Origin: a bacterium
GTDB lineage: Bacteria; Hinthialibacterota; Hinthialibacteria; Hinthialibacterales; Hinthialibacteraceae
Assembly (NCBI GenBank): GCA_016125385.1
Contig: WGLV01000065.1
Coordinates: 1-49,662, forward strand
Length of the DNA stretch: 49,662 nt
Direction of reading: 5' to 3'
Below are positions 23,601 through 49,232 of the stretch, in pieces. The notes under the pieces are model-generated. The model saw only the letters and a list, made by a program, of their open reading frames with translations. It was not told the DNA's origin and did not search any database. A program made the position numbers and the translations under genes. Every line of letters begins with the position of its first letter. Positions within the stretch are counted from its first letter, which is position 1.

Positions 23601-24507
23601 TTCCCTTCACGCTCTGATTAAGGCCCATCGTCCATAGCGACATCCAGGCTTTCCGTTCGCCGATCCAACGCGCCGCGGTTTCGATATCACCCACACAGAG
23701 GCCAGTGATTTCAGCAACGCGTTCAGGCGTGTCATCCTGAACCAACGCTACGGTTTCGTCCCATCCTTCCGTGTTATTCGCGATGAAGACTTCATCGATG
23801 CAGCCGTTTCGAATCAGCAGATGAAGCAGCCCGTATAACAGCGTCAGATCGGTTCCTGCACGAAGGGGCAGGAAGAGATCCGCTTTATCAGCGGTCGCTG
23901 TTTTGCGCGGATCGGCCACGATCAACTTCGCACCGGATTTGCTTTTGCGATCCATCATGCGAAGAAACAGAATTGGATGACAATCGGCCATGTTTGATCC
24001 GATGACGAAAAAGAGATCCGCATGGTCGAAATCTTCATAACAGCCAGGCGGCGCGTCCGCTCCAAGCGACAGTTTATAACCGCTAGCCGCGCTGGCCATG
24101 CAAAGCCGCGAGTTGGAATCAATGTTATTTGTGCCGATAAACCCTTTGCAGAGTTTGTTCGCCGCGTATTGCGCTTCGCTCGACATCTGGCCCGAAACAT
24201 ACATGGCGACGGCGTCCGGTCCATCACGTTCGACGATCGCTCTCATTCGTGATGCGGTTTCGTGAACCGCTTCATCAATCGAAATCCGAACTCGCTCCGA
24301 GCCGCGCGATGTACGCGCGGAAGCGCATGTAAGCCGAGTGGGGGCTTGAATCGGGATGTGAGCAGTCAGCCCCTTGGTGCATAGACGGCCGAAATTGGCG
24401 GGATGATCAGGGTCGCCTTTCAGCGCTTGAATTCGACCATCGGTCACGGACGCGATCATTCCACACCCCACTCCACAATAAGGACAAACGGTTTTTAATC
24501 GATTCAT
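20635..24507 (-). CDS. fused assimilatory nitrate reductase-nitrite reductase
   Basis: 1290 residues in one uninterrupted frame. Residues 1-697 are a molybdopterin nitrate reductase (NasA/NasC type), with the [4Fe-4S] cysteines C8, C11, C15 and C43 (CPYCGVGC...LCTKG). It ends in the usual KFSAVRLSK. A short bridge (698-708) contains MEQMIQEDVSA. Residues 709-1290 are a siroheme nitrite/sulfite reductase of NirA type with two repeated ferredoxin-like halves and the heme/cluster cysteines C1154, C1160, C1195 and C1199 (CTGNTGC...GCPHSC). The chain could therefore take nitrate to ammonium. M709 looks like an ancestral nirA start, so a lost stop codon explains the fusion. Known relatives are mostly separate genes. 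Confidence 0.9.
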   Translation of the reverse strand: MNRLKTVCPYCGVGCGMIASVTDGRIQALKGDPDHPANFGRLCTKGLTAHIPIQAPTRLTCASARTSRGSERVRISIDEAVHETASRMRAIVERDGPDAVAMYVSGQMSSEAQYAANKLCKGFIGTNNIDSNSRLCMASAASGYKLSLGADAPPGCYEDFDHADLFFVIGSNMADCHPILFLRMMDRKSKSGAKLIVADPRKTATADKADLFLPLRAGTDLTLLYGLLHLLIRNGCIDEVFIANNTEGWDETVALVQDDTPERVAEITGLCVGDIETAARWIGERKAWMSLWTMGLNQSVKGTWNTSALCNLHLATGSIGFPGAGPFSLTGQPNAMGGREVGYLSHALPGQRCVIEAGDREFIERVWNRESGFISPRPGLDTVSLFKALEDRSVKAVWIIATNPVASVANRKNVIAGLTNAELVIVQDAFHPTETSEFADVLLPGALWAEAEGTMVNSERRITLMNRIVDPPGEALPDWLWITRVAWAMGYTHDFSYQCAEDIFNEMRRTSNYKSEYVLEGVTYDRLKQKSLSWPCYSTELDSMPRRYLGESDGMRFAHANGKARFIVRRDEVPGDAPSENFPIVLTTGRLPHQWHTRTKTGHVEKLNRLNPAPFIQMNPAAAAQLDVNEGDMVRVESINGTAVYPARLDTRVKASECFVSFHWNDGLHAVNQVVSDACDPVSLQPEFKFSAVRLSKMEQMIQEDVSAMNTELKSTQSIGAFSDEQKEFLQGLMAGYRQQGLVMPGAASPGEIAVPESETVYGTTIDDLCKEEKIKHELNGLDVWGRILSSAEKNIFPEGGDVFRFKYHGLFYVSPAQEAYMLRCRIPGGILSSMQLRGLADIAEQWGGGYASITTRANMQIRDIQPKNAVNVLTRLYDIGLTSKGSGADNVRNITASPTSGIDPDEVYDVRPLAKALHYYILNDRELYGLPRKFNIAFDNGGAVSVVMDTNDVGFLAVRVDEGHEVEPGIYFRVQLGGITGHGDFAQDAGVLIQAGQCLPVAVAIVRVFIEHGDRTNRKKARLKYLIEKWGLAKFLEKVEKKLSFKFTRFAYENCRKRRHTTRHGHLGIFRQSQPGFSYVGVKIPVGQMKARQMRQIADIADSCGSSEVRLTVWQNLIIPNVSEDRIPELQRKVKHAGFDYQASAIMGGLVACTGNTGCKFSSTNTKGQAMELAAWLENKVKLDRPINIHLTGCPHSCAQYYCGDIGLLGVKVTDNGESVEGYNVLLGGGVDQDQGLAREVFKAIPFTRLPALLERVLNVYLQKRNAGESFVEFTRRHEIGQLQELFSN

Positions 24508-24511
24508 AAAC

Positions 24512-25306
24512 TCAGTTCAGAATTTGTTTTCCTTTGTTCTGATAGAGAAATCTCAACACTTCGGCGCGGTAGTGGTTATAGGCTCCGTCGTCGGCGAGTT
24601 CGACGCGGTTGCGCGGCCGGGGCAATTCAACATTGAGAATTTCGGCGATGGTGGCGGCGGGGCCGTTGCTCATCATCACAATTCGGTCTGACAACAACAC
24701 GGCTTCGTCTACGTCGTGCGTGATCATGACGATGGTGGAATGCTGCCCAGAGTGAATTTCCAGAATTGAATCCTGCAGACTGGCGCGAGTCAGCGCGTCC
24801 AGCGCGCCCATCGGCTCGTCGAGCAGAAGCACCTTGGGCTTCATCGCCAGAGCGCGGGCGATGCCGACGCGTTGTTTCATCCCGCCGGAGATTTCAGCGG
24901 GGCGTTTGTCACGGGCGTCTTCCATGTGGACCAGCTCGAGATTGTGCATAACCCACTCATGGCGTTCGGCTCGCGTCATGTTTTGGCGAAAGACTTTATC
25001 CACCGCCAGTTGAACGTTGCCATATACGGAAAACCAAGGCAGCAGCGAGTGATTTTGAAACACCACCGCACGATCGGGCCCCGGCTCGCATACCTCCTGC
25101 CCCTCGAGAATCACGCCGCCGCGAGTCGCGCGATGAAGCCCCGCGATGATGTTCAACAGCGTCGACTTCCCGCAGTCGGAGTGACCGATGATCGAGATGA
25201 ATTCGCCGCGGTTGATGTTTATTGACACATCGCGCAAAGCATGAAACGGCCCTTTTTGCGTCTGAAACGTCATTTCTACCTGTTCAATCTGAAGAATCGC
25301 CTTCAT
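24512..25306 (-). CDS. nrtD: nitrate ABC transporter ATP-binding protein
   Basis: 264 residues. Walker A GHSDCGKST (Asp where Gly is usual at the fourth position), signature ISGGMKQRVGIARAL, Walker B VLLLDEPMGALD and a switch His in ITHDVDEAVLL. It powers nitrate/nitrite uptake with NrtB. It lacks the extra substrate-binding-like domain of NrtC, so it corresponds to NrtD acting as a homodimer. It lies 4 bases before the reductase gene and 14 bases after nrtB in one operon. Confidence 0.9.
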   Translation of the reverse strand: MKAILQIEQVEMTFQTQKGPFHALRDVSININRGEFISIIGHSDCGKSTLLNIIAGLHRATRGGVILEGQEVCEPGPDRAVVFQNHSLLPWFSVYGNVQLAVDKVFRQNMTRAERHEWVMHNLELVHMEDARDKRPAEISGGMKQRVGIARALAMKPKVLLLDEPMGALDALTRASLQDSILEIHSGQHSTIVMITHDVDEAVLLSDRIVMMSNGPAATIAEILNVELPRPRNRVELADDGAYNHYRAEVLRFLYQNKGKQILN

Positions 25307-25320
25307 GGTTGTCTCTCCGA

Positions 25321-26445
25321 TCAGCGGATTTCCACATTGGGTTCATAGCTGGCCCATCGCTGAATCGCAATCATGATCCGATCGAGCAGAAAACCGATGA
25401 TTCCGATGGTGAACACGGCGACCATGATTTGAGCGAGGGTTTTGCTGCTTCCGTTTTGAAACATGTCCCAGACGAATTTGCCCAGCCCGGGATTCTGCGC
25501 CAACATTTCCGCCGCGATCAACACCATCCAGCCAATGCCGAGTGAAAGACGTAATCCGGTGAAAATGTACGGCAGGGCGGCCGGGATGACGATTTTGAAG
25601 GTTTTTTCAAACCAGCCCAGTTTCAAAACCTTAGCGACGTTGAGGTAGTCCTGATCGATGTTGACAACGCCGTTGGCGGTGTTGATCAACGTGGGCCATA
25701 GCGAACAGAGCGCAACGACGATAGCCGAACTCAAAAACGCTTTTTCAAACATCGGGTCGGATGGGTTGTACCATGCGCTCACCATGATCATCACCATTGG
25801 AAGCCAGGCGAGCGGCGAGACCGGCTTGAAGATCTGGATCAGCGGATTCAACGACTGGTAAATCGTTTGACTCATTCCGCAGAGCAGTCCGATCGGAACA
25901 GCGATGACGGATGCGATCATGAAACCGAAAAACTCGGTATACAAACTGGTGAAAATCTGGTCGATGAAGGTATCTTTCCCGGCGTAACCGTGTTCAACCC
26001 ACTCACGATCGGGGAACCGTTGGAGATAACGGGCCTTCAACTCATCCTGCTTCGCGTAAAATTCGCGTTCCTTCACGCCTTCCTCGACGTGTTCGTTCCA
26101 CAAATTCACGGCTTCCTCATATACCTGATACGGTCCCGGCAACGTTCCGGTTCTCACCACGGCGTTTTGCGCCACGATCGACCATACAAACAGAAACAGA
26201 GCGAAAGCGAGCAGAGGCAGCAAGTACGTCCGTATGATCTGATCGAGATTCCGCCTTACGTCGCGTCTCGCAGCGATACAAAGAAATGGATTGATCCATC
26301 CCAACCCGACTCGTTCAAAGCGGTTCAGCCACCAATCGAATTTCGGCGCCTCGTTCACGGATTTCACTTTCGGCACGAGCGATCGTTCATCGCGGCGTGA
26401 TTCGTCCTGTTCTTCCGTCATCGACAGGCTCGCCTTTCCAATCAT
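25321..26445 (-). CDS. nrtB: nitrate ABC transporter permease
   Basis: 374 residues. An N-terminal soluble extension of about 70 residues precedes the first membrane helix (LLPLLAFALFLFVWSIVAQN). Further helices are visible around FGFMIASVIAVPIGLLCG and VMIMVSAWYN. The cytoplasmic coupling loop is AAEMLAQNPGLGKFVWD, the EAA-type loop that contacts the ATPase. The permease is longer than typical NrtB (about 280), due to the N-terminal extension and an inserted charged loop (residues 120-155). It sits between nrtA (12-base gap) and nrtD. Confidence 0.88.
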   Translation of the reverse strand: MIGKASLSMTEEQDESRRDERSLVPKVKSVNEAPKFDWWLNRFERVGLGWINPFLCIAARRDVRRNLDQIIRTYLLPLLAFALFLFVWSIVAQNAVVRTGTLPGPYQVYEEAVNLWNEHVEEGVKEREFYAKQDELKARYLQRFPDREWVEHGYAGKDTFIDQIFTSLYTEFFGFMIASVIAVPIGLLCGMSQTIYQSLNPLIQIFKPVSPLAWLPMVMIMVSAWYNPSDPMFEKAFLSSAIVVALCSLWPTLINTANGVVNIDQDYLNVAKVLKLGWFEKTFKIVIPAALPYIFTGLRLSLGIGWMVLIAAEMLAQNPGLGKFVWDMFQNGSSKTLAQIMVAVFTIGIIGFLLDRIMIAIQRWASYEPNVEIR

Positions 26446-26457
26446 ATCGATCCCTCG

Positions 26458-27804
26458 TTATTCATCTTTGATACCCACAGGAAACTGTTTGAGATAATCG
26501 TTAGGCTTTTTCGCGTCAAAGATGACGCCATCGATGAATCCGTCGTCGGGCTTCTTGTATCCATCGGTTTTGGGCACGTCATCTTCCGTCAGTACGCCGT
26601 CATCAATCAGTTCAGCGGCGGCCTTGAGCCAGATATCGGGGCGATATACTTCCTCAGCGGTTTTGAAATACCAATCGTCCGGCTTGACCTCGCCGATCTG
26701 CCCCCAGCGGCGCATCTGCGTCAAAAACCATACGCAATGGCTGTAAAACGGATATGTCGCGTCATAGCGATAAAAGACGTTAAAATCGGGGTAATCTCGC
26801 TTGTCGCCTTTTTCAAATTCAAAGGTTCCCGTCATGCTGTTAGCGATAACTTCCGCGTCGGCGCCAACGTACTCGCTCCGCGAAAGAATTTTGACAGCCT
26901 CCTTGCGGTGCTCGATGCTCTCGTCGAGCCATTTGCCGGCGCGGATCAGCGCCTTTATCACAGCGACGTGCGTCTTGGGATACTTGTTGTTCCAGTCCAG
27001 CGTTACGCCGAATACCTTTTCAGGATTGTTTTTCCAGATGTCATAGTTGGTCACAACAGGAACACCGATACCTTTAAACACAGCCTGCTGGTTCCACGGC
27101 TCGCCAACGCAATACCCCTGAATGGTTCCCTGTTCGAGAGTGGCGGGCATCTGAGGAGGAGGCGTCACCGAGAGCAACACGTCGGCATCGGTCGTGCCGG
27201 TGGTGTCGCCATTGGTGTAATAGCCTGGGCTGATACCCGATGCGGCCAGCCAGTAACGGATTTCGTAATTGTGCGTGGAAACCGGAAACACCATTCCCAT
27301 GCGTAATGGATCGCCGCTTCGTTTGAATTCTTCCACAACGGGTTTAAGCGAATCGGCGGAGATGGGATGAGGCGGCTTATCCTGATCCAGCTTGGGATCG
27401 TTTTTCTTCATCCGTCCCCAGATATCATTCGATACCGTGATTCCGTTTCCATTTAGATCCATACTAAACGCGGTGATGATGTTCGCTTGCGTTCCGATAC
27501 CGACGTACGCACCGATCGGCTGACCAGCCAGCATATGCGCGCCATCAAGCTCGCCGCTGATCACTCGGTCAAGCAGCACCTTCCAATTCGCCTGAGCTTC
27601 AACCGTCACGAACAACCCTTCATCCATGAAATAACCCAATTCCTTGGCGATGATGATCGGCGCGCAATCGGTCAGTTTGATAAAGCCGAATTTTAGTTCG
27701 AGTTTTTCAGCATCAAGCAGACCCGCCGAAACGGGAAGGTTAATAGCAATCAAACAAAAAATCATAAAATTCGCGAGGAACGCCAGGCGAGTACATCGCT
27801 TCAT
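26458..27804 (-). CDS. nrtA: nitrate/nitrite-binding periplasmic protein
   Basis: 448 residues with a signal peptide ([20 protein letters not shown], cleavage near VSA at 28). The nitrate-binding family signature is [18 protein letters not shown], followed by [15 protein letters not shown]. It captures nitrate in the periplasm and passes it to NrtB. It is the first gene of the operon, preceded by AGGAGA and a -24/-12 promoter (27853-27868). No lipobox is seen, so it is probably soluble rather than a lipoprotein as in cyanobacteria. Confidence 0.92.
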
Positions 27805-28367: not shown

Positions 28368-29672
28368 TCAGAATGTAATCGTCGTCATCAAATATCCCCA
28401 ATCGGCGTCATCATTGCTCCCCGTATCGTCGATGAAATCGCCTGCGATCAGGTGAGAATATCCAGCTTCGACCTTCAGCCAGTCAGACGCAACGTATGAT
28501 ACGATAAAGTCGAGTTCCGTACCGACGTAACCATCAGCACCGGGAGCGCCTGTGCGCAAGATAGCGCCCGCCGCGCTATACCAAGCGTCTGTATCTGGTT
28601 CAGCGAGTATGAAGTTATGCATTTCGAACTTCGCCGTCATCTTGTCCATCGGCTTGGCCGAGACTTCCATTTCAACGTCGTGCATGTTGCGCCACGAAGC
28701 GATATCCATCTGGCCGTAGTGAATGTGGTTGGTTGGAAAAAGGTTGTCAAAGGTTCCATGATCGCCATCGCTCGGGTTGTCATCGCCGGGAGACCAATTA
28801 TACCCGACGCCGATTCGCGGCGACCAAGTGTAATCAAAGGTATACCCCGCGTTAACCGACATGGCGAAAGCCTGATGATTAAGCCCGGCGAAATCTCCGA
28901 ACTGACCGGCGAATTCCGCCTCCCAGTCCCAGCCGGACTCGTAGGTTTTACCTAACCGGGCGCCGGCCGTATGAACCTGCGTATCGACGTTATCCACGTC
29001 TTTCAAAAGATAATACACTTCAACAAAGTCAAGATATTCAATCTTTTTCCACGTCGAGTACACGCCGTACAGCGTGCTGTGATTGTTGAGCACGTCGTTG
29101 AACTCGCCGAACTCGTGATCCACCGGCTGACCGGCGAACACGTCAATCGAACCGCCCAAATCACTCAGCACGACGTTGGCTTTAACCGCGTCGAAGGAAC
29201 GCGCCGTGTTGCTCCATAAAAAATGCCCTACCAAACGCTGTTTTCCATAAAATAGCAACTGCCGACCGACTTTCAGCGATACGGGGGAGCCACCGATTTT
29301 ATCCATTTCCATGTAAGCCTGGAAGAAATCGATATCGTCTTCAAAACCATTCGGCACAGCGTGCCGGCTGATGATATCGGACCCGAACTGACGCGAATCC
29401 TGAAGTTCGACGAAAGATTTCCAGTATTCACTTGGGTGCAAATCGAAATGCAGCTTGCTGCGTTGCAGAATCCGAGTGTCTCCAACATCGGATGATCCCG
29501 CCGCATTATAAAAGTTGCTAAACGATTCCACCCTTGTTCTCAGTTCTCCACCGACGCTCAACGTATCATCGAAAAACCTGAATTCATCCTCGCCGTACGC
29601 CGCCGTTACGGCGGCGATCGCGGGGAACGCGCAAATACAATAAATTACGTGCAATAGCCATTTTCTCTTCAT
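28368..29672 (-). CDS. outer-membrane porin of the alginate-export (AlgE-like) family
   Basis: 434 residues, signal peptide ending around AAVTAAYG (residue 27), then alternating beta strands throughout and a terminal Phe (LMTTITF), the recognition signal for the outer-membrane BAM machinery. SVGGELRTRVESFSN and HFDLHPSEYWKSFVELQ match the alginate-export porin family, which also includes porins not linked to alginate. Here the neighbours are nitrate genes, so it more likely lets nitrate or another anion across the outer membrane. It demonstrates a diderm cell for this half of the window. It is transcribed away from the electron-transfer genes. Confidence 0.85.
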   Translation of the reverse strand: MKRKWLLHVIYCICAFPAIAAVTAAYGEDEFRFFDDTLSVGGELRTRVESFSNFYNAAGSSDVGDTRILQRSKLHFDLHPSEYWKSFVELQDSRQFGSDIISRHAVPNGFEDDIDFFQAYMEMDKIGGSPVSLKVGRQLLFYGKQRLVGHFLWSNTARSFDAVKANVVLSDLGGSIDVFAGQPVDHEFGEFNDVLNNHSTLYGVYSTWKKIEYLDFVEVYYLLKDVDNVDTQVHTAGARLGKTYESGWDWEAEFAGQFGDFAGLNHQAFAMSVNAGYTFDYTWSPRIGVGYNWSPGDDNPSDGDHGTFDNLFPTNHIHYGQMDIASWRNMHDVEMEVSAKPMDKMTAKFEMHNFILAEPDTDAWYSAAGAILRTGAPGADGYVGTELDFIVSYVASDWLKVEAGYSHLIAGDFIDDTGSNDDADWGYLMTTITF

Positions 29673-30129: not shown

Positions 30130-32133
30130 ATGAACGAACCTCCAAATCCGACCCTTTTCGCCATAATGGGCTCCACTTCGGCGGCGCCGCGCCATGTCGT
30201 CGTTGTGGGCAATGGAATGGTAAGCGCCAGGTTTTGTGACCGGCTTCTTCAATGTCAAAACGGAATCAACTGGAAGGTAACCATCATCGGCGATGAAGCG
30301 TTTCCAGCTTATGACCGCGTTCATCTCTCCGTTTTTTTTGAACGAGACAATTTTGAAAGTCTGTTGATGCTCCCTTCAGAATGGTATCGACTAAAAGGAA
30401 TCGACCTGCGTGTAAGTGAACGCGTGGACCATATCGACCTGGAAACAAAACATGTAACTACCTCGAACGGCGATCGCTTTCATTATGACGATCTAGTACT
30501 CGCGACGGGATCGGAACCCTACGCTCCCCCAATCCGCGGCATCGATACGCCAGGCGTCTTCTTTTACCGCACTCTTAATGATTTGAAGAACATTCAGGAA
30601 TACGGGCGCGACGCCAAGTGCGCCGCTATCATCGGAGGGGGGCTGCTCGGGCTTGAAGCGGCGCAGGCGTTGCTTCACATGAACATCGAAACCCACATTC
30701 TTGAAATAGCTGACTTTCTGTTGCCCAAACAGTTAAATCGTGAAGCAGGCGAAGTTCTTCTAGCCAAGATCGAATCGCTGGGGATCCACGCTCACTTGCA
30801 GACAAGAACAACATCCATCCAGCCAATTCAAAATGGCTTGCGCCTGATACCGCAAGCCGGCGATCCGCTGGACGTGGATATGGTGATCATTTCGGCGGGA
30901 GTTCGCCCTCGTGATCGCCTGGCGAAGAAAAGCGGAATCGCCTGTAGCCCGGGCGGCGGAATCCTCGTCGATGAAACGTTGCGCACCTCCAATCCATCCG
31001 TCTACGCGATTGGAGACTGTGTGAATTTTCGAGGACATCTCTATGGTCTGGTCGCACCAGGATACCGAATGGCGGCGGCGCTGGCCGCTTCACTGAACGG
31101 AGAACCAGCTGTATTCATTCACAGCAATGAATCGACTCGCCTCAAACTGCTTGGCGTTGAAGTATCAAACATTGGCCATAGCCGCCAACCTGGCGAATGT
31201 TGCGTGTATCATCGTGACGGGGTATATCGTGAATGCTTTTTCGCGGAAGGCTCGGTCATTGGCGCGATATCGATCGGGCCGTGGCCCGAAGAACCGAAAG
31301 TATTGAGCTATATTGAGAATGGACTACCAATTGGAATCGAAGAAATCGACTCTTTTGTTCAAGATGGTATGTTCTGGCCTGAACAGACCGGCTCAATCTT
31401 CTTTTCTTTGCCCGACGCAGCGACGATCTGCACGTGCATGAGCGTGCGTAAATCAACACTGTGCGAGTTGTATGAATCAGGCAGGAGAAGCGTGGCGCAA
31501 CTCGCCTGCGAAACGGGCGCTTCAACGGTTTGCGGCTCGTGCCTTCCGCTGCTCAAGGAACTCACGGGCGAATCCCTCTCCATTCCGCAATCACATATTC
31601 CTCAATCACTACTGGTATTTTCCTCATTCGCCGCGGTCTTCGCATCAGTCATTTTATTCACTCTCTCCCCTCTACCATTCGCCGAATCAGTTGAGTCGGC
31701 GTGGCGCAAGATCGATGTATTCTGGCGAAACGGTCTTATCAAGCAGATCAGTGGCTACACCCTTCTCACCCTTTCGCTAATCGCGCTGCTGTTCTCATTA
31801 CGCAAACGCGTGACATGGCTGAAATGGGGCGAGTATTCATGGTGGCGAATGGTTCACGCCGTCATCGGCATGACGACCTTGCTTGCTCTACCGATTCATA
31901 CCGGTTTCCGACTAGGCGCGAACATGAACGAGGCGCTGATGATCAGCTTTATCCTGTTGTGCGCGGCGGGCGCGTTCGCGGGCGCCGCAACGGGAATCGA
32001 AGCGCTCAACCGTCCCCTGTTACGGCGCTTTCTCATCACGGCGAAGCCATACTTAACTTACCTTCACATCGCGTTATTCTGGCCCATCCCGATTCTGATC
32101 GCCTTCCACATTCTCGCGGTTTATTATTATTGA
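30130..32133 (+). CDS. NirB-type FAD/NAD(P)H reductase fused to BFD [2Fe-2S] and diheme-b-like membrane domain
   Basis: 667 residues from ATG 30130 (GGAAA upstream; M at 30166 is an alternative). Residues 20-400 are an NAD(P)H/FAD module like the N terminus of NirB: VVVVGNGMVSARF for FAD, CAAIIGGGLLGLEAAQAL for NAD(P), and VYAIGDC. Residues 430-475 are a BFD [2Fe-2S] domain (CTC...VCGSC). From about 488 there are five membrane helices. Helix 3 carries H-x13-H (VHAVIGMTTLLALPIH) and helix 5 carries H-x13-H (LHIALFWPIPILIAFH), the pattern of bis-heme cytochrome b. It lacks the siroheme domain of NirB. The chain should carry electrons from cytoplasmic NAD(P)H into the membrane. Its stop overlaps the next start (TGATG). 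Confidence 0.85.
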   Translation: MNEPPNPTLFAIMGSTSAAPRHVVVVGNGMVSARFCDRLLQCQNGINWKVTIIGDEAFPAYDRVHLSVFFERDNFESLLMLPSEWYRLKGIDLRVSERVDHIDLETKHVTTSNGDRFHYDDLVLATGSEPYAPPIRGIDTPGVFFYRTLNDLKNIQEYGRDAKCAAIIGGGLLGLEAAQALLHMNIETHILEIADFLLPKQLNREAGEVLLAKIESLGIHAHLQTRTTSIQPIQNGLRLIPQAGDPLDVDMVIISAGVRPRDRLAKKSGIACSPGGGILVDETLRTSNPSVYAIGDCVNFRGHLYGLVAPGYRMAAALAASLNGEPAVFIHSNESTRLKLLGVEVSNIGHSRQPGECCVYHRDGVYRECFFAEGSVIGAISIGPWPEEPKVLSYIENGLPIGIEEIDSFVQDGMFWPEQTGSIFFSLPDAATICTCMSVRKSTLCELYESGRRSVAQLACETGASTVCGSCLPLLKELTGESLSIPQSHIPQSLLVFSSFAAVFASVILFTLSPLPFAESVESAWRKIDVFWRNGLIKQISGYTLLTLSLIALLFSLRKRVTWLKWGEYSWWRMVHAVIGMTTLLALPIHTGFRLGANMNEALMISFILLCAAGAFAGAATGIEALNRPLLRRFLITAKPYLTYLHIALFWPIPILIAFHILAVYYY

Positions 32134-33500
32134 TGAAAATTACGCAAAATGGGTTCTATTGGTTTCTCTGGTCTCTGTCCAGCTCCGCGTCCATCGGCGT
32201 GCTGGGATTCATGATGGTATACGAACAGAATAGTACGCTATTCCTTCCTGGCATGACGACGAATGGACACTATCAAATTGAGATAAAATGTTCCGCCTGC
32301 CACACTCCGTTCATGGGCGTGAAACCGGACGCTTGTATGAGCTGTCACGAAGAAGAACTTAAGCGCGCAAACGATTCTCATCCCAAATCGAAATTCACCG
32401 ACCCGCGCAACGCGGATCGAGTCGCTTTATTGGATGCGAGAAACTGCATTACCTGCCATGAAGAACACGTTGAGGACCGTACGCATTCAATGGGAGTAAC
32501 GCTCCCCACCAATTATTGTTATTATTGTCACCAGGATATCGGCCAAGTCAGGCCAAGCCATCGCGATTTACCATACAACTCTTGCGCGACTTCAGGATGT
32601 CATAATTTTCATGACAATACCGCATTGTATGAAGATTTTTTGCTCGATCACGCCAACTCGCCCGATCTGAAATCGCCCGCCGCCATTCCTGCGTTAAAGA
32701 CGGATCTCACCAGCGCGTCCCACCCCGCTGCTCTGACACGCGCCGACGCGAACGCACCGTCCGGCATGAAGTTCGACTCAATCGTGTACCAGGAATGGGA
32801 GACCACGGCGCACGCTTACGCCGGCGTCAATTGCATGGATTGTCATAGCGCGGAGGCCAGCGGCGGTTCTAAAACATGGACGGAAATTCCATCGAATGAA
32901 GCTTGCGCACGATGCCACTCATTCGAGCATCAATCCTTTCTTGAAGGCCGCCACGGTATGCGCCTCGCTCAAGGGTTGCCCCCCATGCGTCCGGCGATAG
33001 CCCGTCTGCCCATGAAACCGGAATCAGCGCAAAAAGTTTTGAATTGCAACGCTTGTCACTCCGCTCACGCTTACGATACACGCAGAGCCGCCGTTGACGC
33101 TTGCCTGCAATGTCACAACGACGACCACTCGTTGAATTACCTGAACCAGGATTCTCCTCACTACAATTTATGGAAAACCGCATTGACTTCGGATGGAGAT
33201 TTGACGCAAGGAGTATCGTGTGCGACCTGCCACATGCCTCGCACAGAATATAAAGAAAATGGCCAAAATCAAATACGAATCATTCACAATCAGAATGATA
33301 ACCTTCGTCCCAATGAAAAGATGGTTCGCGGCGTTTGCCTTTACTGTCACGGTCTGCAATTCACTCTCGACTCTCTAGCGGACGAGAAGCTGATCCAAGC
33401 CAATTTCAATCATCCTCCTGAAAGTCACGTTCAAAGCATCGAATGGGGGAAGAAGCAAAATGACGAAATCACAGCCACAAAAGAAAGAAAGCGGAATTAA
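32133..33500 (+). CDS. membrane-anchored multiheme cytochrome c (10 CxxCH plus one CX4CH)
   Basis: 455 residues. An N-terminal helix (FYWFLWSLSSSASIGVLGF) anchors it with the bulk outside. Heme motifs in order: CSACH, CMSCH, CITCH, CYYCH, CATSGCH (CX4CH), CMDCH, CARCH, CNACH, CLQCH, CATCH, CLYCH. No CxxCK motif as in NrfA is present, so it is not a classical pentaheme nitrite reductase. The overlap with the upstream gene implies a joint complex: the diheme b domain would hand electrons to this protein. It might deliver them to a reductase, to the globin partner, or reduce a nitrogen compound itself. The sequence resembles multiheme proteins of anaerobic planctomycetes only in general layout; I would not name it further. 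Confidence 0.88.
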   Translation: MKITQNGFYWFLWSLSSSASIGVLGFMMVYEQNSTLFLPGMTTNGHYQIEIKCSACHTPFMGVKPDACMSCHEEELKRANDSHPKSKFTDPRNADRVALLDARNCITCHEEHVEDRTHSMGVTLPTNYCYYCHQDIGQVRPSHRDLPYNSCATSGCHNFHDNTALYEDFLLDHANSPDLKSPAAIPALKTDLTSASHPAALTRADANAPSGMKFDSIVYQEWETTAHAYAGVNCMDCHSAEASGGSKTWTEIPSNEACARCHSFEHQSFLEGRHGMRLAQGLPPMRPAIARLPMKPESAQKVLNCNACHSAHAYDTRRAAVDACLQCHNDDHSLNYLNQDSPHYNLWKTALTSDGDLTQGVSCATCHMPRTEYKENGQNQIRIIHNQNDNLRPNEKMVRGVCLYCHGLQFTLDSLADEKLIQANFNHPPESHVQSIEWGKKQNDEITATKERKRN

Positions 33501-33822: not shown

Positions 33823-34413
33823 ATGAAAGATTACCGTTCGTTCACCGGCGTTATCTCGTTGCTTTTAACAGGAATCGCAGGCGCTTATATGTTCGCCTGC
33901 GTAAATTCTTCATCGATCCCGAATGGAATCAGCCCGAAAACCATGGCGGACGCATTGCACGCCGTGATGGAGTCGGACCGCACGGTTTACACAAAAAACG
34001 TCGTTAATCGCCTGACCAAAGATGAGAAAGTCATTACCGCCAGCGAACATTGGCAAGACGACAAAGCCCTTCCCCTTCCCGCCCAGATGTTCCGTATGGG
34101 CGCCGAAATGGTTAGCGAAAAGACAAGCGATTTTTCATACACGCTTCAATCGCTCTGGCCGATTAACAAACAAAACATGCCGAAAACCGATGTTGAAAAA
34201 GAAGGGTTAACATTTATCGTGGATAATCCGGGGCAAAATTATTATAAAGAAGAAAAACTGGGCGATTCGACTTATTTTACAGCCATTTATCCCGACACGG
34301 CCGTCGCGCCCGCCTGCATCGCCTGCCATAACGCTCACAAAGACAGCCCGCGGTCTGATTTCAAAATGAGAGAGGTTATGGGTGGAGTCGTAATTCGTAT
34401 TCCAATCAAATAA
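33823..34413 (+). CDS. DUF3365 / Tll0287-like single-heme c-type protein
   Basis: 196 residues with an N-terminal hydrophobic segment (VISLLLTGIAGAYMFACVNS); AC at 27-28 may be a weak lipobox. The fold is PAS-like and carries one heme motif, CIACHNAH near 168-173, as in the Tll0287 family, proposed to be a redox or gas sensor. GGAGGT lies 6 bases before the ATG. It lies between the multiheme gene and the globin. A periplasmic sensor or small electron carrier is plausible; substrate unknown. Confidence 0.85.
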   Translation: MKDYRSFTGVISLLLTGIAGAYMFACVNSSSIPNGISPKTMADALHAVMESDRTVYTKNVVNRLTKDEKVITASEHWQDDKALPLPAQMFRMGAEMVSEKTSDFSYTLQSLWPINKQNMPKTDVEKEGLTFIVDNPGQNYYKEEKLGDSTYFTAIYPDTAVAPACIACHNAHKDSPRSDFKMREVMGGVVIRIPIK

Positions 34414-34502: not shown

Positions 34503-34925
34503 ATGAATGACATAACGCCGGAACAGATTAATCTGGTGCAGTCAAGCTGGGGAATGGTCGCTCCGATTTCCGGCACCGCCGCGGAGCTGTTTTACGGCAG
34601 ACTGTTTGAGCTGGATCCAGGCCTTAGACCACTGTTTAAGAGCGATATCAAGGAACAAGGCAAAAAACTAATGCAGATGATCAGCGTGGCCGTACAGGGG
34701 TTGAATAACCTCGACGGCATCGTCCCCGCCGTACAAAGTCTGGGCAAGAGACACGTTGGATACGGCGTAAAGCCTGAACACTACGATACTGTCGGCGTCG
34801 CCTTGCTATGGACGCTGGAAAAAGGCTTGGGGAGCGAGTTTAACGAGGATGTCAAAACCGCATGGGAAAACGTATATGGAACTCTGGCGGCAGTAATGAA
34901 AGATGCAGCGTATAGCACTGCCTGA
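34503..34925 (+). CDS. single-domain globin (NO/O2-binding)
   Basis: 140 residues. A complete globin fold of the bacterial Vgb/flavohemoglobin type: helices A-H with proximal His in LGKRHVGYGVKP (residue 83), LFKSD at the C-D corner and TLEKGLGSEF late. There is no reductase domain, so it is a single-domain globin that needs a separate reductase for NO dioxygenase or NO reductase activity; the neighbouring flavin proteins could supply it. GAGG 9 bases before the ATG. Upstream gap 89 bases, no strong promoter seen. Confidence 0.9.
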   Translation: MNDITPEQINLVQSSWGMVAPISGTAAELFYGRLFELDPGLRPLFKSDIKEQGKKLMQMISVAVQGLNNLDGIVPAVQSLGKRHVGYGVKPEHYDTVGVALLWTLEKGLGSEFNEDVKTAWENVYGTLAAVMKDAAYSTA

Positions 34926-34973
34926 GATTAGAATAGCAAAAAGCTCGCCATCAGAAGCCATTAATGCTTTCTT

Positions 34974-35001
34974 TTGCATTAAGGTTCGGGCATGCTATAG
35001 T
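34974..35001 (+). promoter_or_regulatory. sigma-70-type promoter of nsrR
   Basis: TTGCAT (34974-34979) and TATAGT (34996-35001) with 16 bases between. Bacterial -35/-10 form, unlike the TATA boxes in the left third. Confidence 0.55.
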
Positions 35002-35054: not shown

Positions 35055-35504
35055 GTGAATCTGACCCGGTTTACAGACTATTCCCTTCGAGTCTTTCTCT
35101 ATCTCGCGCTTCGTTCCGATCAGCGTGTCTCGATCGAAGACATAACCCGCTTTTATGGCATTTCAAAAGATCATCTGATCAAAGTCGTCAATAAGCTCGG
35201 ACGTCTGGGTTACATCAAGACCACTCGCGGCCGGAATGGCGGAATCGAACTGGCGAAACACCCCAGTGAGATCACCATCGGCGAGGTCGTGCGTAAAACG
35301 GAATCGAATTTTCATATCGTTGAATGTTTTGACCCTCAGACGAATCACTGTTCCGTCACGGGGGTTTGCCACCTCAAATTCATCCTTGCCGAAGCACTTG
35401 AAGCGTTTTTAAAAGTGCTTGATAACCACACGCTCGAAAGCATGATCATTGACAAAGAGATGGCGAAAAAGTTCCTCAAGATTAGCGAATCGCTGACAAT
35501 GTAA
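35055..35504 (+). CDS. nsrR: Rrf2-family nitric oxide-sensing repressor
   Basis: 149 residues starting at GTG 35055. Winged helix at 1-80 (FTDYSLRVFLYLAL, SKDHLIKVVNKLGRLGYI) and the cluster loop CFDPQTNHC-SVTGV-C, three cysteines spaced x7 and x5. NsrR of enterobacteria has the same three cysteines, though with a shorter first gap, and binds a [4Fe-4S] or [2Fe-2S] cluster that NO destroys. It should repress genes for NO defence; the adjacent globin and heme genes are natural targets. IscR-type spacing is different, so NsrR is the better match. Confidence 0.85.
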   Translation: MNLTRFTDYSLRVFLYLALRSDQRVSIEDITRFYGISKDHLIKVVNKLGRLGYIKTTRGRNGGIELAKHPSEITIGEVVRKTESNFHIVECFDPQTNHCSVTGVCHLKFILAEALEAFLKVLDNHTLESMIIDKEMAKKFLKISESLTM

Positions 35505-36541: not shown

Positions 36542-37297
36542 TTACAAAAACATCTGAATGTCGGTCTGCATTTCGTGAAAGAGCTCATTCTGGTGGGTCT
36601 GGATGAAGAAATGATCGCCGCCGAACTGTTTTGATCGAAATGGGCCGGTGGTCAGGGCGCTCCAGGCGCGGAGCTGGTCATTGCTGACTTCCCCGTCGCG
36701 CAATCCGCCCAACGCAACGAGCGGAACGGGAACCGGCGCGACGCTCTCAGAGAGGCGGTAGGTTTCATTCAATTCGAAATCGGCCCGCATAGCGGGAAGA
36801 ATGATTTCCATCAGCTCTTCGTTTTCAAGCACGGAGGCGGGAGTGCCGTTGAGATCGCGCAGTTTGGCGCGGAATTCAGGATCGGGCAGAAGGTAAGTCT
36901 GGTCTTCATCATACGGAAGAATCGGCGAGCGGCGGGCGCATACCCACACGCATTCAGGGAGCCGGGCGCCGCGCTGATGCAGGCGCCTCGTCAACTCAAA
37001 AGCCACTGCGGCGCCCATGCTGTAGCCGAACAGCGCGAAAGGACGGTCCCAGCACTCGGCAAGCGCTTCTTCCAACGCAGGGATTAGCGCATCCATGCGA
37101 GTGAACGGCGGCTCAGACAAGCGGATTTCACGCCCCGGAAACAGAACGGGGCATATCTCCACCGATTGAGGCCAGCGCGTTTTCCACGCTCGAAACGCGG
37201 AGGCTCCACCGCCCGCGTAGGGAAAACAGAAAATCCGCAGGGCGGAATCGGATCGCGGCTCATTATAAGGAAGCCATTTTTTCAATTGCGATTGCAT
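36542..37297 (-). CDS. type II (editing) thioesterase, GrsT/RifR family
   Basis: 251 residues. alpha/beta-hydrolase with catalytic Ser93 in GYSMG, Asp in the GLRDGEV region near 200 and His229 in GGDHFF; IFCFPYAGGGASAFR is the family N-terminal signature. It clears misloaded phosphopantetheine groups from carrier domains of the NRPS. It is the last gene of the operon, 4 bases after the terminal NRPS gene. Confidence 0.92.
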   Translation of the reverse strand: MQSQLKKWLPYNEPRSDSALRIFCFPYAGGGASAFRAWKTRWPQSVEICPVLFPGREIRLSEPPFTRMDALIPALEEALAECWDRPFALFGYSMGAAVAFELTRRLHQRGARLPECVWVCARRSPILPYDEDQTYLLPDPEFRAKLRDLNGTPASVLENEELMEIILPAMRADFELNETYRLSESVAPVPVPLVALGGLRDGEVSNDQLRAWSALTTGPFRSKQFGGDHFFIQTHQNELFHEMQTDIQMFL

Positions 37298-37301
37298 TAA
37301 T

Positions 37302-39749
37302 TCATGTATCCTGTTCAGGCTGCAACTGGATTAACAATTCTCGCGCCAGCGTGGCGGCGTGCGGATCGTCGAGCAGGGTTTCGTGCGAGCCGGGGATTTC
37401 GATCACCTCGACGCCTTCTTCGGCGAATGCCGCCCACCCCATCGTCTTGTCACAGATTGTTTCCTGCTTTTCCCGCGCGGAAAAGAGGGTCAGCCGGCCC
37501 GGATACCGTGAATGTTCCCGAGGCGAAAACGCCATCGCGTGATTGAGTTTGCACACACGCAGATAGCGGCGGCCATCGTCAAGATTAAAATCTTCTGGAA
37601 CGTATTCGGCTTCTCGCGCTTTTTGCAGCACAAAACGGAGCTGGGCCTCTTCATCCATCCCGCGCAGGTCATCCAGCGAGACGTTCAGCGTCTGATAAAA
37701 CAGGCTGTACAGTAAGGCGGCGGAATCGATGGTTTTCTGGTTTTCCGGCACGATTGCCGGATGGGGCGCGTCAAGCATCGCAACAAACGGCTCGGGTTCA
37801 CCCTCTTCGATCAAAAGACGCGCTATCTCAACCGCAACATAGGCGCCGAATGAATAGCCCGCGAGACGATACGGTCCCCGAGGCTGGCATTGGCGGATTT
37901 CACGCAGGTACGCAGCCGCCATCTCCGGCATGGCGTGGAACGGCTCCTCGCCTTCATTCATCCCCATCGCCTGCAATCCATAAACCGGGAAGGCCCCGCC
38001 AAGCCGACGTGCGAGATTCACGTAACAGACGACATGCCCGCCCAACGGATGGACGCAAAACAGTGGATGCTGTTCGCCGCCGGGTTGAATCAGAACCATC
38101 GGAGACGGCGTGGCGGCGCCGGTTTCGCGCGACAAAACGGCAGCCATCGCTTCCAGCGTGCGCGAATGCAAAAACACGGAAAGCGGAATTTTTTTTCGAA
38201 AACGGCTTTCAATTTCAGCCGTGAGACGCGCGACCAGCAGCGAGTGGCCGCCCAGCAGGAAGAAATCGTCATGTACACTGACACGATCGACTCCAAGCAG
38301 ACGCATCCAGATTTGAGCCAGTTGAATTTCAAGAAGCGTACGCGGAGCGACAAACGCGGCGCGATCATGCAGTGAAAGCTGCGCGTCATGATACTCAGGA
38401 ACGCCGCATTCCCCGACTCCGCGCACGAGATGCTCTACCAGGCGCCCGGGGTTCTCCACTATCTGGCGAAGAACGTATTCAAATCCACACAGAATCGTTT
38501 CAACGGATGATCGCGGCAGGCGGCGCCGATCGGCGATCGCGGTGATTTCAAGGCGGGACGACGCCGCGATGAGCCAGGTCAACGGATGCGCCGTGCGAGC
38601 GCCCTGACTTTCAACAACAGACGCCCGCAAGGTTGAGTTCGGGGCTGACGCCCCAGCCGGAGCCGGGTAGTTTTGAAAAACCAGCAGGCTCTCATACAGC
38701 GGCGCCGACTGGGGCGCCTCGCTCCATGAATGGATTTCACCGGCGGAGCAGTCGCTGAACTCTTCGAGAGCCAGCAGATGTTGTTGAGTCGACCCCAGCC
38801 ACGTCTCAACCGTCATACCGGGATCGACGCGGAGACGAATGGGAATCGAATTTATAAACAGACCGACGATGGATTCGGCGCCCGGCAAGCGCGGAGGACG
38901 ACCGGAGACGGTCGCCCCAAACACGATGTCATCCCGCTCGCTATAGCGGCCGAGCATTATCGCCCAGGCGGCGCGCATGACATGGCTGAGCGTCAGACCA
39001 CGTTCGCGAGTCCAGCCGCGCATGGCTTCAAGCCAGTCTTCTGGCAGGAATACAGCGCGGCGGATAAATCGATCGGCGCTTTCATCCACCGGGATGGGCG
39101 GCGAGGAAACACCCAAGCGATTCGCCTGCGAAAAGCCCCGCAAATACGTACGCCAGAAGGTTTCAGAGGCGGATTTGTCTTTTTCTTTGATCCAGCGGAT
39201 GTAGTTTTTATATGGAACAGCGGATGGCAGAACGGGTTCTGTCTTCGAGCAAGCGCTTTGATACAGCGCAAATAATTCATTAAACAGTATCGGTAACGAC
39301 CATCCATCCAGCAGGATGTGATGCCAGGTGAAAACCAGCAGAGATTCCTTCTCCCGGCGGTGGAGCAGCGTCAGTCGAAACAGCGGAGCGCGTTGAAAGC
39401 GGAACTCGCGCAGACGATCCGCATGCAGGAATTCCTGTAACGTTGCGTCATACGAATCGTCCGGCACAGAGCGCCAATCCATCTCTTCCAGCGGCGTCTC
39501 CACATCACGCAAGACCGCCTGCACCGGTTCGTCGAGGCCTTCCCAGGCGAACGCGGTACGCAACACGGGGTGACGGGCCATCAGGCGCTTCCACGAATCG
39601 AACATCGCCGTACGATCCAGCGAACCTTCAAGCAGGAAGACGGATTGCTCGACGTGAACGCCTGTCCGGGGGGCGGCTAACGACTGAAACAGCATTCCCC
39701 GTTGAGAGGGTGATAATGTATAGAGGTCTTCGACGGCTTTTTGCTTCAT
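37302..39749 (-). CDS. terminal NRPS protein C-T-TE without an adenylation domain
   Basis: 815 residues. Condensation domain 8-430 with HHILLDGWS at 143-151; its start (YTLSPSQRGMLFQSL) is the type that accepts D-configured donors, consistent with the preceding epimerase. Carrier domain around 470-535, phosphopantetheine Ser503 in LLGGHSLL. Thioesterase 550-810 with Ser633 in GYSFG, Asp660 and His789 (GSHETLL). Between C and T only about 35 residues remain (VRGVGECGVPEYHDAQLSLH), where a 500-residue A domain is normal. The T domain must be charged in trans, or the C domain acts without an added amino acid (for example in cyclisation or dimerisation). Gap to the previous gene: 21 bases. Confidence 0.88.
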   Translation of the reverse strand: MKQKAVEDLYTLSPSQRGMLFQSLAAPRTGVHVEQSVFLLEGSLDRTAMFDSWKRLMARHPVLRTAFAWEGLDEPVQAVLRDVETPLEEMDWRSVPDDSYDATLQEFLHADRLREFRFQRAPLFRLTLLHRREKESLLVFTWHHILLDGWSLPILFNELFALYQSACSKTEPVLPSAVPYKNYIRWIKEKDKSASETFWRTYLRGFSQANRLGVSSPPIPVDESADRFIRRAVFLPEDWLEAMRGWTRERGLTLSHVMRAAWAIMLGRYSERDDIVFGATVSGRPPRLPGAESIVGLFINSIPIRLRVDPGMTVETWLGSTQQHLLALEEFSDCSAGEIHSWSEAPQSAPLYESLLVFQNYPAPAGASAPNSTLRASVVESQGARTAHPLTWLIAASSRLEITAIADRRRLPRSSVETILCGFEYVLRQIVENPGRLVEHLVRGVGECGVPEYHDAQLSLHDRAAFVAPRTLLEIQLAQIWMRLLGVDRVSVHDDFFLLGGHSLLVARLTAEIESRFRKKIPLSVFLHSRTLEAMAAVLSRETGAATPSPMVLIQPGGEQHPLFCVHPLGGHVVCYVNLARRLGGAFPVYGLQAMGMNEGEEPFHAMPEMAAAYLREIRQCQPRGPYRLAGYSFGAYVAVEIARLLIEEGEPEPFVAMLDAPHPAIVPENQKTIDSAALLYSLFYQTLNVSLDDLRGMDEEAQLRFVLQKAREAEYVPEDFNLDDGRRYLRVCKLNHAMAFSPREHSRYPGRLTLFSAREKQETICDKTMGWAAFAEEGVEVIEIPGSHETLLDDPHAATLARELLIQLQPEQDT

Positions 39750-39770
39750 ATTGAAATGGAGAACTTTTCT

Positions 39771-42700
39771 CTATTGTTCAAATTCGAGTTGATTCAAGAC
39801 GGAGTCCAGCTGGTTCTGATCGAGATCGACGTCACTGAACTCGGATGGAGACAACGCGCCCGCGTCATTTGAACGGCAATGATCGATCAGGCGGCTCAGG
39901 CGATTCTCAAAGCGGTTCATCCATGACTCGATTGTCTCAGGGCGATGGAGAGCTCGGCTGTAAATCCATTGCACGCGCAATCGTTCCTGATGAATCGATG
40001 CGACGATTTCCAGCTCGTGCAGACGCCGCGCGTTTGGGTCCATCATGGGGCCGGTTGATTCTTCCGCGAAACCAAGAATGAACGACGATGATGCAACGGA
40101 TCGATCGAAACGCCCCAGATAGTTGAACGCGACCTGTGGATGCGGCCAGCGGCTCATTTCGTCAGGCCGGGCGTTCTTCAATAAACCATATTCAAAAGCA
40201 TGGCGGGCGAAACGCCGCGATTGTTCCTTCATCGCGATCAGAAGGTCTCTTTCGTTCTTCGAATCACCAGGTTCGAGCATAACAGGGTACAACGTAGTGA
40301 ACCAGCCAACCGTTCGAGACAGATCGATGCCCTCTCCCTCAAAATCCCGACCGTGTCCCTCCAGATGGATAAGACATTGAGCCGTATCCATCCACTCGCA
40401 TAACACCGGCGCCAGCGCAGCGAGCAGCGTTTCCTGTACATTCACGCCGTAGGCGGACGCAGCCTGATGAAGGAGCGCGCCGGTGTCTTCGGAAGATAGA
40501 ATTATCGCACGGCTTTCAGCGGTATTCGCAGTATTCGCATCTGATTCCACAGTGAAGTCATGCGGGATCAGTGAAAGGACGGGAGTCCGACTTCTCCAGA
40601 ATTCCGCAGCTGCGTTCATGCGGCGGGATTGGGTGTATTCGTGCAAGCGGCGCGTCCAGCCCGTCCAGGACGAAGAGATGTCGGGCGGCAGCGGTTCGCC
40701 GCGATGGATCGCCTCCATTTCTTCAAACAGTACACGCCATGACACGCCGTCGATGGCGAGATGATGAATCACGATTAAACACAACGCGGGCCGTCCCGCG
40801 CCCATGTTGAAACGCGCCGCGGCAACGATCGGTCCGGTTTCGACATTCAGGCTCGACTGGACTCGTCCCGCATATTCGGCGATGCGTTCGGATCTAACTT
40901 GTTCAGCATCACCAGATGCGTCATATTCAAAAAGACGCGGAGCCGCTTGCGTTGGATCAATGGCGGATTGATTCCATTGTTCTCCAGACCGGGAAAATCG
41001 GAGACGCAGTGCGTCATGACGCACTATCAGCGCGTTCAGGATCCGTTCAATCTCTTTGATTGAAACCGATTCAGGGATTTCCAGAAATACCGCCTGATTG
41101 AAATAGTGCGGATGATTGTTGCAGCGTTCAAAGAAGTAACTCTGGATCGGTGTAAGCGGGAGCAATCCTTCTACCGTTTCAGTCAGAGATATTGAATCAG
41201 CCACCGGTTCAGCGACCGAAGCCAATTCGGCAAGCGTCTGGTTCTGGAAAATCTGTTTATGGGTCAATCTGTATCCGGCGCGGCGGGCGCGAGCAATTAC
41301 CTGCGCGCTCTGAATAGAATCGCCCCCCAGCATGAAGAAATTGTCATGCAGCCCGGCGCGCTCGACTCCCAAAACATCAACCCAGATATCAGCCAGCGCT
41401 TTTTCGACCGGCGTACCGGGCGGCGTATAGCGGGCGGATTCGGATTGAAAGACCGGCGCGGGTAAGGCGGATCGGTCGATCTTGCCATTGGGCGAGAGCG
41501 GCCATTCGTCGAGATAGAGCAGCGCCGATGGAACCATGTATTCGGGGAGCTTACGTTTAAGCGAATTGAGTATCGCCATCTCACCGCGTTTATCGGCGAG
41601 CAGATAGCCGACGATTTTTTTGACGCCGGGCGCGTCTTCACGCAGCAGTACGATCGCCTCTCGAACCTCAGGCAATGAAGATAACGCCGCTTCGATTTCT
41701 CCCAGTTCCACGCGAAAGCCTCGAATCTTGATCTGGGAATCGAGACGGCCGAAAAATTCAATCTCTCCGGAAGGTAACCATCGGACGGAATCGCCGGTGC
41801 GATACATGCGCGCGCCGGGCGATGGGGCGTAAGGATCGGGAAGAAACATTTCGCCCGTTAATGCGGGGCGGCGATGATACCCTCGCGCGACGCAAACGCC
41901 CCCAATAAAAAGTTCGCCCGGGACGCCGACGGGACATGGATTCAGCCAGGGATCAAGCACATAAAGCCGGACGTTTTGAATGGGCCGGCCGATGGGGACG
42001 ATCGGGCGATCATACTCGGGACGGCAAGCCCAATGGCTAACTTCAATCGCTGCTTCCGTCGGTCCATAGAGATCGTGTAATTCGGCGCCGAGACGTTGGA
42101 AAAAGAGAGTCATCGTCTCATAAGGCAATGCTTCTCCGCTGGTGAATACACGTTTTACCGTGCGGCAACGTTCAACGCCTTCCTGCTCAAGAAAAACGCG
42201 AAGCATGGGCGCGACGAAGTGAATCACTGTGATTTTCCGGCGTTGAACCAGTTCCATGATGTACGCAGCGTCACGGTGACCGCCCGGCCTGGCAATCACG
42301 AGCGTCGCCCCCGTCATTAAAGGCCAGAAGAGTTCCCATACGGAAACGTCAAAGCTGAAAGGAGTTTTCTGGACGACGCGATCGCGTGGCGTCAGGGGGA
42401 ACATGGTTTGCCCCCAAAGAAGGCGATTGCACACGCCGCGATGAGCGTTCATCACGCCTTTGGGGATCCCAGTTGAACCTGAAGTATAGATGACATAGGC
42501 CAGGTTATCCGGCGTTTGTACAGGCGGCAGGTCCGTATCAGCGAGCGAATCCAATTTCGCCGATTCCTCATCCAGGCAAATATATCTCCCGGATTCAGGC
42601 AGGCGATCCAAGTGCCGGCTCATGGTTATCACGGCGGCAACGCGCGAGTCATCCAGCATGAACGACAGACGATCTTGCGGATAATCGGGATCAAGCGGAA

Positions 42701-49228: not shown

Positions 49229-49232
49229 ACAG

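Follow-up and report, generated by a model that had tools for sequence, protein, structure and literature searches.

In the stretch of DNA analyzed here, hereafter the window (49,662 nucleotides, contig WGLV01000065.1), two overlapping genes encode P1 (30130-32133, +; 667 residues) and P2 (32133-33500, +; 455 residues), proteins that together would form an inner-membrane electron conduit. Its anatomy, which we consider very probably correct, comprises (i) a module for NAD(P)H and flavin adenine dinucleotide (FAD), a [2Fe-2S] BFD domain, and five transmembrane (TM) helices with two b hemes, all in P1, and (ii) an N-terminally anchored undecaheme cytochrome c, P2. Electrons from cytosolic NAD(P)H, probably NADH, would pass through the FAD and the BFD cluster of P1 to an inner heme b (H576/H646) and an outer heme b (H590/H660), and then along the 11-heme wire of P2 to periplasmic heme proteins; a DUF3365 lipoprotein would be the chief recipient, joined in many relatives by a small class-I cytochrome c. 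This order of cofactors, already proposed in a preliminary description of the same DNA, is supported by the domain content. The flow of electrons is probably outward, and the chances are balanced that nitric oxide (NO) or another N-oxide is the target. The most likely job of the conduit would be the outward delivery of reducing power with which NO or a different nitrogen oxide formed in the course of nitrate assimilation is handled, in parallel with a cytosolic globin that the flavin half of P1 may also keep reduced; taken as a whole, this favored reading is as apt to be right as wrong.

The P1 frame runs from an ATG at 30130 to a TGA at 32131-32133, and the ATG of P2 at 32133 shares one base with this stop (TGATG); both frames are open, in the order and with the overlap previously described. 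The FAD/NAD(P)H module, of the NirB N-terminal/BphA4 type (residues 22-400; 30193-31329, +), matches Pyr_redox_2 (6.5e-50) and Rubredoxin_C (2.4e-6) in Pfam, and in the AlphaFold model of P1 (mean predicted local distance difference test, pLDDT, 82) the reductase half resembles BphA4/TodA in a fold search (TMt 0.86-0.88). The module is followed by a predicted [2Fe-2S] domain (residues 432-478; 31423-31563, +; Fer2_BFD, PF04324, 3.5e-6), with the cysteine spacing of Bfd, C434-x-C436-x31-C468-x2-C471. The NirB profile TIGR02374 aligns to residues 23-480 with 398.6 bits, against a cut-off of 578.35, and the alignment ends at profile position 466 of 794, leaving P1 with no siroheme/[4Fe-4S] nitrite-reductase domain. 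P1 resembles NirB and NasB in the succession of FAD/NAD and BFD domains but scores under the NirB cut-off and carries a membrane diheme-b domain in place of the siroheme domain. The latter is indeed absent, as the preliminary description had noted; that it was "lost" is an interpretation, since the same reductase fold exists without a siroheme domain in BphA4/TodA.

The membrane domain (31609-32130, +) comprises five hydrophobic helices located after the BFD domain by hydropathy, with H576 and H590 on the third helix and H646 and H660 on the fifth (predicted heme-b His codons at 31855, 31897, 32065, and 32107, respectively, +), each pair displaying the spacing H-x13-H. The preliminary description had staked its diheme-b assignment in part on homologues retaining these pairs; in an alignment of 17 P1 sequences from several phyla all four His residues are invariant, together with C434, C436, C468, and C471, and both patterns recur in another 12 copies of the locus, of which 10 come from newly found genomes. 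Because the eight residues are invariant and recur in later homologues, the pattern is not a matter of chance, and the presence of two b hemes in P1 is supported by these motifs. The Lys/Arg content of the predicted cytosolic loops (means of 5.2 and 4.0) compared with that of the predicted periplasmic loops (1.6 and 0.6) follows a positive-inside distribution, consistent with a cytosolic N-terminus, which would place H576/H646 at the cytosolic ends of TM3 and TM5 and H590/H660 at their periplasmic ends.

That electrons can pass from NADH through a flavin and two b hemes into the periplasm is a principle already known from NOX, FRD, and MsrPQ. In SpNOX, the TM3/TM5 pairs H69/H129 and H82/H142 hold the inner and outer hemes, and P1 would share with NOX/FRD and with E. 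coli Fre-MsrQ-MsrP the succession of NAD(P)H, flavin, two b hemes ligated by His residues of TM3 and TM5, and an extracytosolic acceptor (PMC11031084). P1 also agrees with the NOX/FRD layout in that both His-bearing helices run from inside to outside. In contrast to NOX/FRD, where an FNR-type dehydrogenase is C-terminal, P1 displays (i) an N-terminal NirB/BphA4-class reductase, (ii) an inserted [2Fe-2S] cluster, and (iii) five transmembrane helices instead of six, with no match to PF01794 (FRD) in the Pfam scan; its presumed acceptor, an 11-heme cytochrome, also sets it apart from NOX, FRD, and MsrP.

P2 comprises a single N-terminal transmembrane helix (residues 11-29), ten CxxCH motifs, and one CX4CH motif (C151-H157), confirming the count given for this anchored cytochrome in the preliminary description. 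All 11 heme motifs are conserved among the P2 homologues, with the CX4CH invariant; in one homologue, L047, the C-terminal half is incomplete. The N-terminal half is a pentaheme c3-like region (32268-32612, +; PF14537) that ends with the CX4CH motif (32583-32603), and the C-terminal half is a hexaheme HAO-like region (32745-33452, +). Among PDB entries, the P2 profile matches NrfA, IhOCC (4qo5, which we take to be this protein), TvNiR, and octaheme nitrite reductases. When P2 was compared by hhalign with proteins from Nitrospirota genomes, its C-terminal half gave E values of 1.8e-19 with HAO-like, 2e-11 with HAO, and 1.2e-21 with related multiheme proteins (single comparisons; 97-99% probability), and its profile is clearly that of a homologue of the octaheme HAO-like enzymes. 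The six C-terminal hemes pair with HAO-like hemes 2, 3, 5, 6, 7, and 8, whereas the motif of heme 4, the catalytic heme of HAO and HAO-like proteins, faces a gap in P2. No CxxCK heme occurs in P2, every motif ending in His, and about 11 further near-invariant His residues (46, 83, 112, 143, 160, 227, 274, 312, 332, 343, and 385) are sufficient in number for bis-His ligation of all 11 hemes. P2 thus shares its multiheme core with the HAO/octaheme family (IhOCC, TvNiR) but differs in the missing catalytic heme 4, the c3-like pentaheme domain in front, and the membrane anchor; because heme 4 is missing, it looks like a wire built on an enzyme scaffold rather than a reductase. An assignment of P2 as an HAO/NrfA-like enzyme, suggested by an early local alignment that set a P2 heme on the catalytic Lys heme of TvNiR, was rejected when the full profile alignment showed the catalytic heme to be missing.

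Downstream of P2 lies a gene for a monoheme c lipoprotein of the DUF3365/Tll0287 (sCache_heme) family (33823-34413, +), which matches PF11845 with 69.2 bits (6.6e-19; cut-off 24.1) and bears the heme motif CIACH. The DUF3365 copies of the operon contain no Cys besides the CxxCH motif and the lipobox/lipoprotein signal region, which excludes a Cys ligation of the Tll0287 type; in the absence of this axial Cys, NO may have access to their heme. Members of the family are now regarded as Cache domains that carry a covalently bound heme, and tight NO binding was reported in one characterized case of an sCache_heme member without the axial Cys (PMC12889525). A sequence search of the PDB disclosed no DUF3365 relative. 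The lipoprotein gene is followed by that of a single-domain globin of the Vgb/Bjgb type (34503-34925, +; PF00042).

The conduit is scattered among bacteria of at least five phyla, almost invariably accompanied by the DUF3365 heme protein and in many cases embedded in nitrate-assimilation clusters. A globin-based scan fetched 57 loci, a set biased toward globin linkage, 16 of which contain P1, P2, DUF3365, and globin together (Verrucomicrobiota, Gammaproteobacteria, Nitrospirota, and Myxococcota). Owing to this bias, genomes were also searched with the P2 profile alone, in scans seeded from G014 (Verrucomicrobiota), G015 (Pseudomonadota), G016 (Nitrospirota), and G017 (Myxococcota). Counting the seed genomes, hits were found in 7 of 289 Verrucomicrobiota, 3 of 398 Pseudomonadota, 3 of 246 Nitrospirota, and 1 of 195 Myxococcota, so P2 is rare and patchy in the scanned phyla. 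The 10 new loci retrieved in this way have both P1 and DUF3365 adjacent to P2 in every case, NrtABD nearby in seven, and globin in five. The gene pair proposed in the preliminary description therefore recurs in other genomes, yet the unit has at least three genes: the constant adjacency identifies P1-P2-DUF3365 as the core, often joined by globin as a fourth gene. In many loci, a small class-I cytochrome c, absent from the window, lies between DUF3365 and globin. For P1, P2, DUF3365, and globin, the distance matrices are correlated with r 0.43-0.81 (Mantel p 0.001 or less), which may partly reflect common species history. No match was obtained in a scan of genomes with a single P1 sequence, in viral contigs, or, for the P1 membrane domain, in plasmids; plasmid matches to P1, set aside as candidates, cover only the FAD-BFD half and, where annotated, are mostly NirB.

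A c3 match in Flammeovirga, found in the plasmid search, led to a parallel version in Bacteroidota. The DUF3365 and globin genes of Flammeovirga and Aquimarina are accompanied by those for a PaaE-like FNR that ends in a [2Fe-2S] domain, a four-TM protein of about 160 residues in which the H-x13-H pair occurs twice, and a pentaheme cytochrome homologous to the N-terminal half of P2 (2e-13). By their gene content, Bacteroidota appear to carry the same electron chain with a non-homologous NADH/[2Fe-2S] reductase; a scan of 345 Bacteroidota genomes recovered only the starting genome. A related bis-His scaffold also emerged from a whole-genome search (5.5e-7); it occurs in two genomes belonging to the same class as the window, carries a long insert (FHA in G011) that separates its fourth helix from the last, and is flanked by a cyclic-nucleotide (cNMP)-binding 4Fe-4S protein on one side and an anchored decaheme cytochrome on the other. 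Since the window, Bacteroidota, and class-relative versions differ, the bis-heme membrane piece and a multiheme c would be combined with at least three input modules. As a side observation, consecutive genes for a cNMP-binding/4Fe-4S protein, a bis-(H-x13-H) membrane protein, and an anchored decaheme cytochrome occur in L013 (3657-7878) and L014 (284-4462), the membrane protein of L013 containing an FHA insert; these sets would be a sibling conduit whose input module is different and possibly regulated.

The window is a nitrate-assimilation island, a setting that adds to the preliminary account. On the reverse strand lie genes for a CysJ-type NADPH flavoprotein, the likely donor to NasA/NirA (18853-20622, -), an assimilatory nitrate reductase of the NasA type fused to NirA nitrite reductase (20635-24507, -; 1290 residues), and the nitrate-type ABC transporter components NrtD (24512-25306, -), NrtB (25321-26445, -), and NrtA (26458-27804, -), recognized by domain matches. 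The NasA-NirA frame scores 843.8 bits with the NirA family, above the cut-off, and its match to NasC-type nitrate reductase is below the cut-off; as a single frame, it would unite the two steps of nitrate assimilation in one polypeptide. Genes of the same kinds flank the conduit in L020, L029, L047, L051, L055, L058, L093-L098, and L102. The 13 remaining genomes of the phylum to which the window belongs contain no conduit and no close NirA, representing the nitrate locus, and this joint absence suggests that the nitrate-conduit island was acquired in one piece. The locus resembles narK-bjgb-flp-nasC of Bradyrhizobium, where a globin, an NAD(P)H flavoprotein, and an assimilatory nitrate reductase are likewise encoded together, the nitrate reductase produces NO, and the globin and flavoprotein counter it; Flp is described as an NAD(P)H oxidoreductase of the usual cytoplasmic kind and, unlike P1/P2, has no transmembrane hemes or multiheme cytochrome (PMC4724949).

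Several points weigh against the favored reading. Among the loci retrieved with P2 alone, an adjacent globin is absent from half and nitrate transport genes from 3 of 10. The membrane region of the P1 model is of moderate quality (pLDDT about 60-84), and the relation of P2 to HAO rests on sequence profiles because its predicted model is poor (pLDDT 62) and the fold search weak (best E 0.025, HAO, not significant). The Bacteroidota membrane protein aligns with the P1 membrane domain with all four His in register along its length at a probability of only 14%. A stand-alone, Cys-ligated DUF3365 member acts as a redox protein, and such proteins are thought to be carriers and not NO binders (PMC12889525). 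Heme binding and the direction of flow are not readable from sequence, and we infer heme occupancy, outward flow, the use of NADH over NADPH, DUF3365 as the reactive end point, and NO or an N-oxide as the target.

The location in nitrate-assimilation clusters would also suit an inward or cytosolic flow, with P1 as a membrane-tethered, NasB/Flp-like donor to the assimilatory nitrate and nitrite reductases, fed by the periplasm or quinol via P2 and the b hemes in addition to NAD(P)H. The NasA proteins of the window and of L095/L096 are about 700-740 residues long, those of L095/L096 lacking a BFD-type Cys pattern, and Bradyrhizobium Flp is required for growth on nitrate and proposed as the NasC donor (PMC4724949). 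However, a CysJ-type NADPH flavoprotein already stands beside NirA in the window, L095, and L096, the Bacteroidota versions show no nitrate genes among the tested neighbors, and a low-potential FAD and [2Fe-2S] pair should be a poor sink for electrons from periplasmic cytochromes; we regard the inward route as unlikely. A variant of the outward scheme, held to be similarly doubtful, proposes an NO defense on both sides of the membrane, the P1 flavin half keeping the globin ferrous while the diheme-b domain and P2 keep the periplasmic DUF3365 ferrous, which would bind or reduce NO; if true, a single NADH reductase would serve both faces of the inner membrane.

It is quite unlikely that the module is an NADH-dependent periplasmic N-oxide reductase in which P2 or DUF3365 itself reduces nitrite, NO, or hydroxylamine. 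The homology of the C-terminal half of P2 to HAO/octaheme proteins, its matches to NrfA and TvNiR sequences, and the possibly open heme site of DUF3365 speak for such an enzyme, but P2 has neither a counterpart of catalytic heme 4 nor a CxxCK heme, and its conserved free His residues could saturate every heme. Of the theme of NO, nitrite, and hydroxylamine raised in the preliminary description, NO is supported, whereas the missing catalytic heme argues against P2 as a nitrite or hydroxylamine reductase. A general NADH:quinone or ferric/extracellular electron-transfer complex, near nitrate genes by chance, is very unlikely. Multiheme c and diheme b proteins are the usual make-up of extracellular and quinone electron-transfer systems, a porin is often adjacent, and the related bis-His scaffold lies beside decaheme cytochromes in the same class; on the other hand, the genes for nitrate transport, DUF3365, and globin stay linked to the module across phyla, no outer-membrane multiheme cytochrome was noted beside the module, and PF13372, the family of the porin, is a substrate-porin family. 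The Uet complex of Tenderiales, as far as it is covered in the portions consulted of PMC10734462 and PMC5371394, likewise combines an eleven-heme cytochrome with a β-barrel porin, yet is described there with cytochromes both outside the cell and in the periplasm and without any NADH module, its likeness to P2 being one of description only; P2 is N-anchored, in contrast to the cytochrome embedded in the outer-membrane barrel of Mtr/Uet conduits.

Few routes are known by which electrons of cytosolic NADH reach periplasmic hemes independently of quinones, and the parts predicted here are unexpected, a NirB-type reductase fused to diheme b and feeding a wire made of a c3-like cytochrome and an HAO-like domain deprived of its catalytic heme. 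No description of the P1-P2 combination was found in the open-access literature, a scope that leaves out subscription journals and most preprints, so this absence is not proof. Conservation across phyla and the existence of two versions with unrelated NADH modules point to selection for the electron path itself. The link to nitrate assimilation suggests an unrecognized step in that common pathway, in which a toxic by-product would probably be dealt with. The conduit can be tested in cultured hosts, among them Alcanivorax and Pelagicoccus.

Among the remaining neighbors, the Rrf2-family regulator downstream of the globin (35055-35504, +) was called NsrR in the preliminary description; its family profile scores make it NsrR-like, meeting the Rrf2 superfamily cut-off, but not assignable as NsrR (141.3 bits, against an equivalog cut-off of 182 for PRK11014/NF008240). 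Its gene also adjoins the module in L021 and L026. An inverted repeat 5' of this gene, TTAATGC-N8-GCATTAA (34961-34982), is a candidate operator by its sequence, and no consensus NsrR site was found in the region upstream of P1. The outer-membrane porin gene (PF13372 by Pfam; 28368-29672, -) is divergent from and upstream of P1, with homologues also upstream of P1 in L029, L044, L051, and L058 and near P1 in L094-L096, L101, and L104. The globins of Aquimarina (L024 9578-10453; L040 9578-10462) are tandem two-domain proteins of about 290 residues, and in L053 (10001-12772), L060 (10004-12412), L065 (10001-12877), L069 (9923-13366), and L057 (7949-11695) the globin lies within long frames of 800-1250 residues, which suggests globin fusions. 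A globin of the same family (42% identity) is encoded in L075 (953-1342), on a contig assigned to a Heimdallarchaeota metagenome-assembled genome.

An NtrC-type response regulator (13829-14749, -) is probably truncated or frame-shifted, since its frame ends inside the sigma-54 domain and has no DNA-binding domain. To the left of the nitrate island, genes for a phage-type integrase, a Fic protein, and a HerA-like ATPase (1304-2647, 8669-9910, and 11081-13090, all -) are in keeping with a mobile region. On the other side, genes for nonribosomal peptide synthetase-like and thioesterase proteins (36542-49640, -) run to the contig end, probably a cut-off biosynthetic cluster beside the conduit island.

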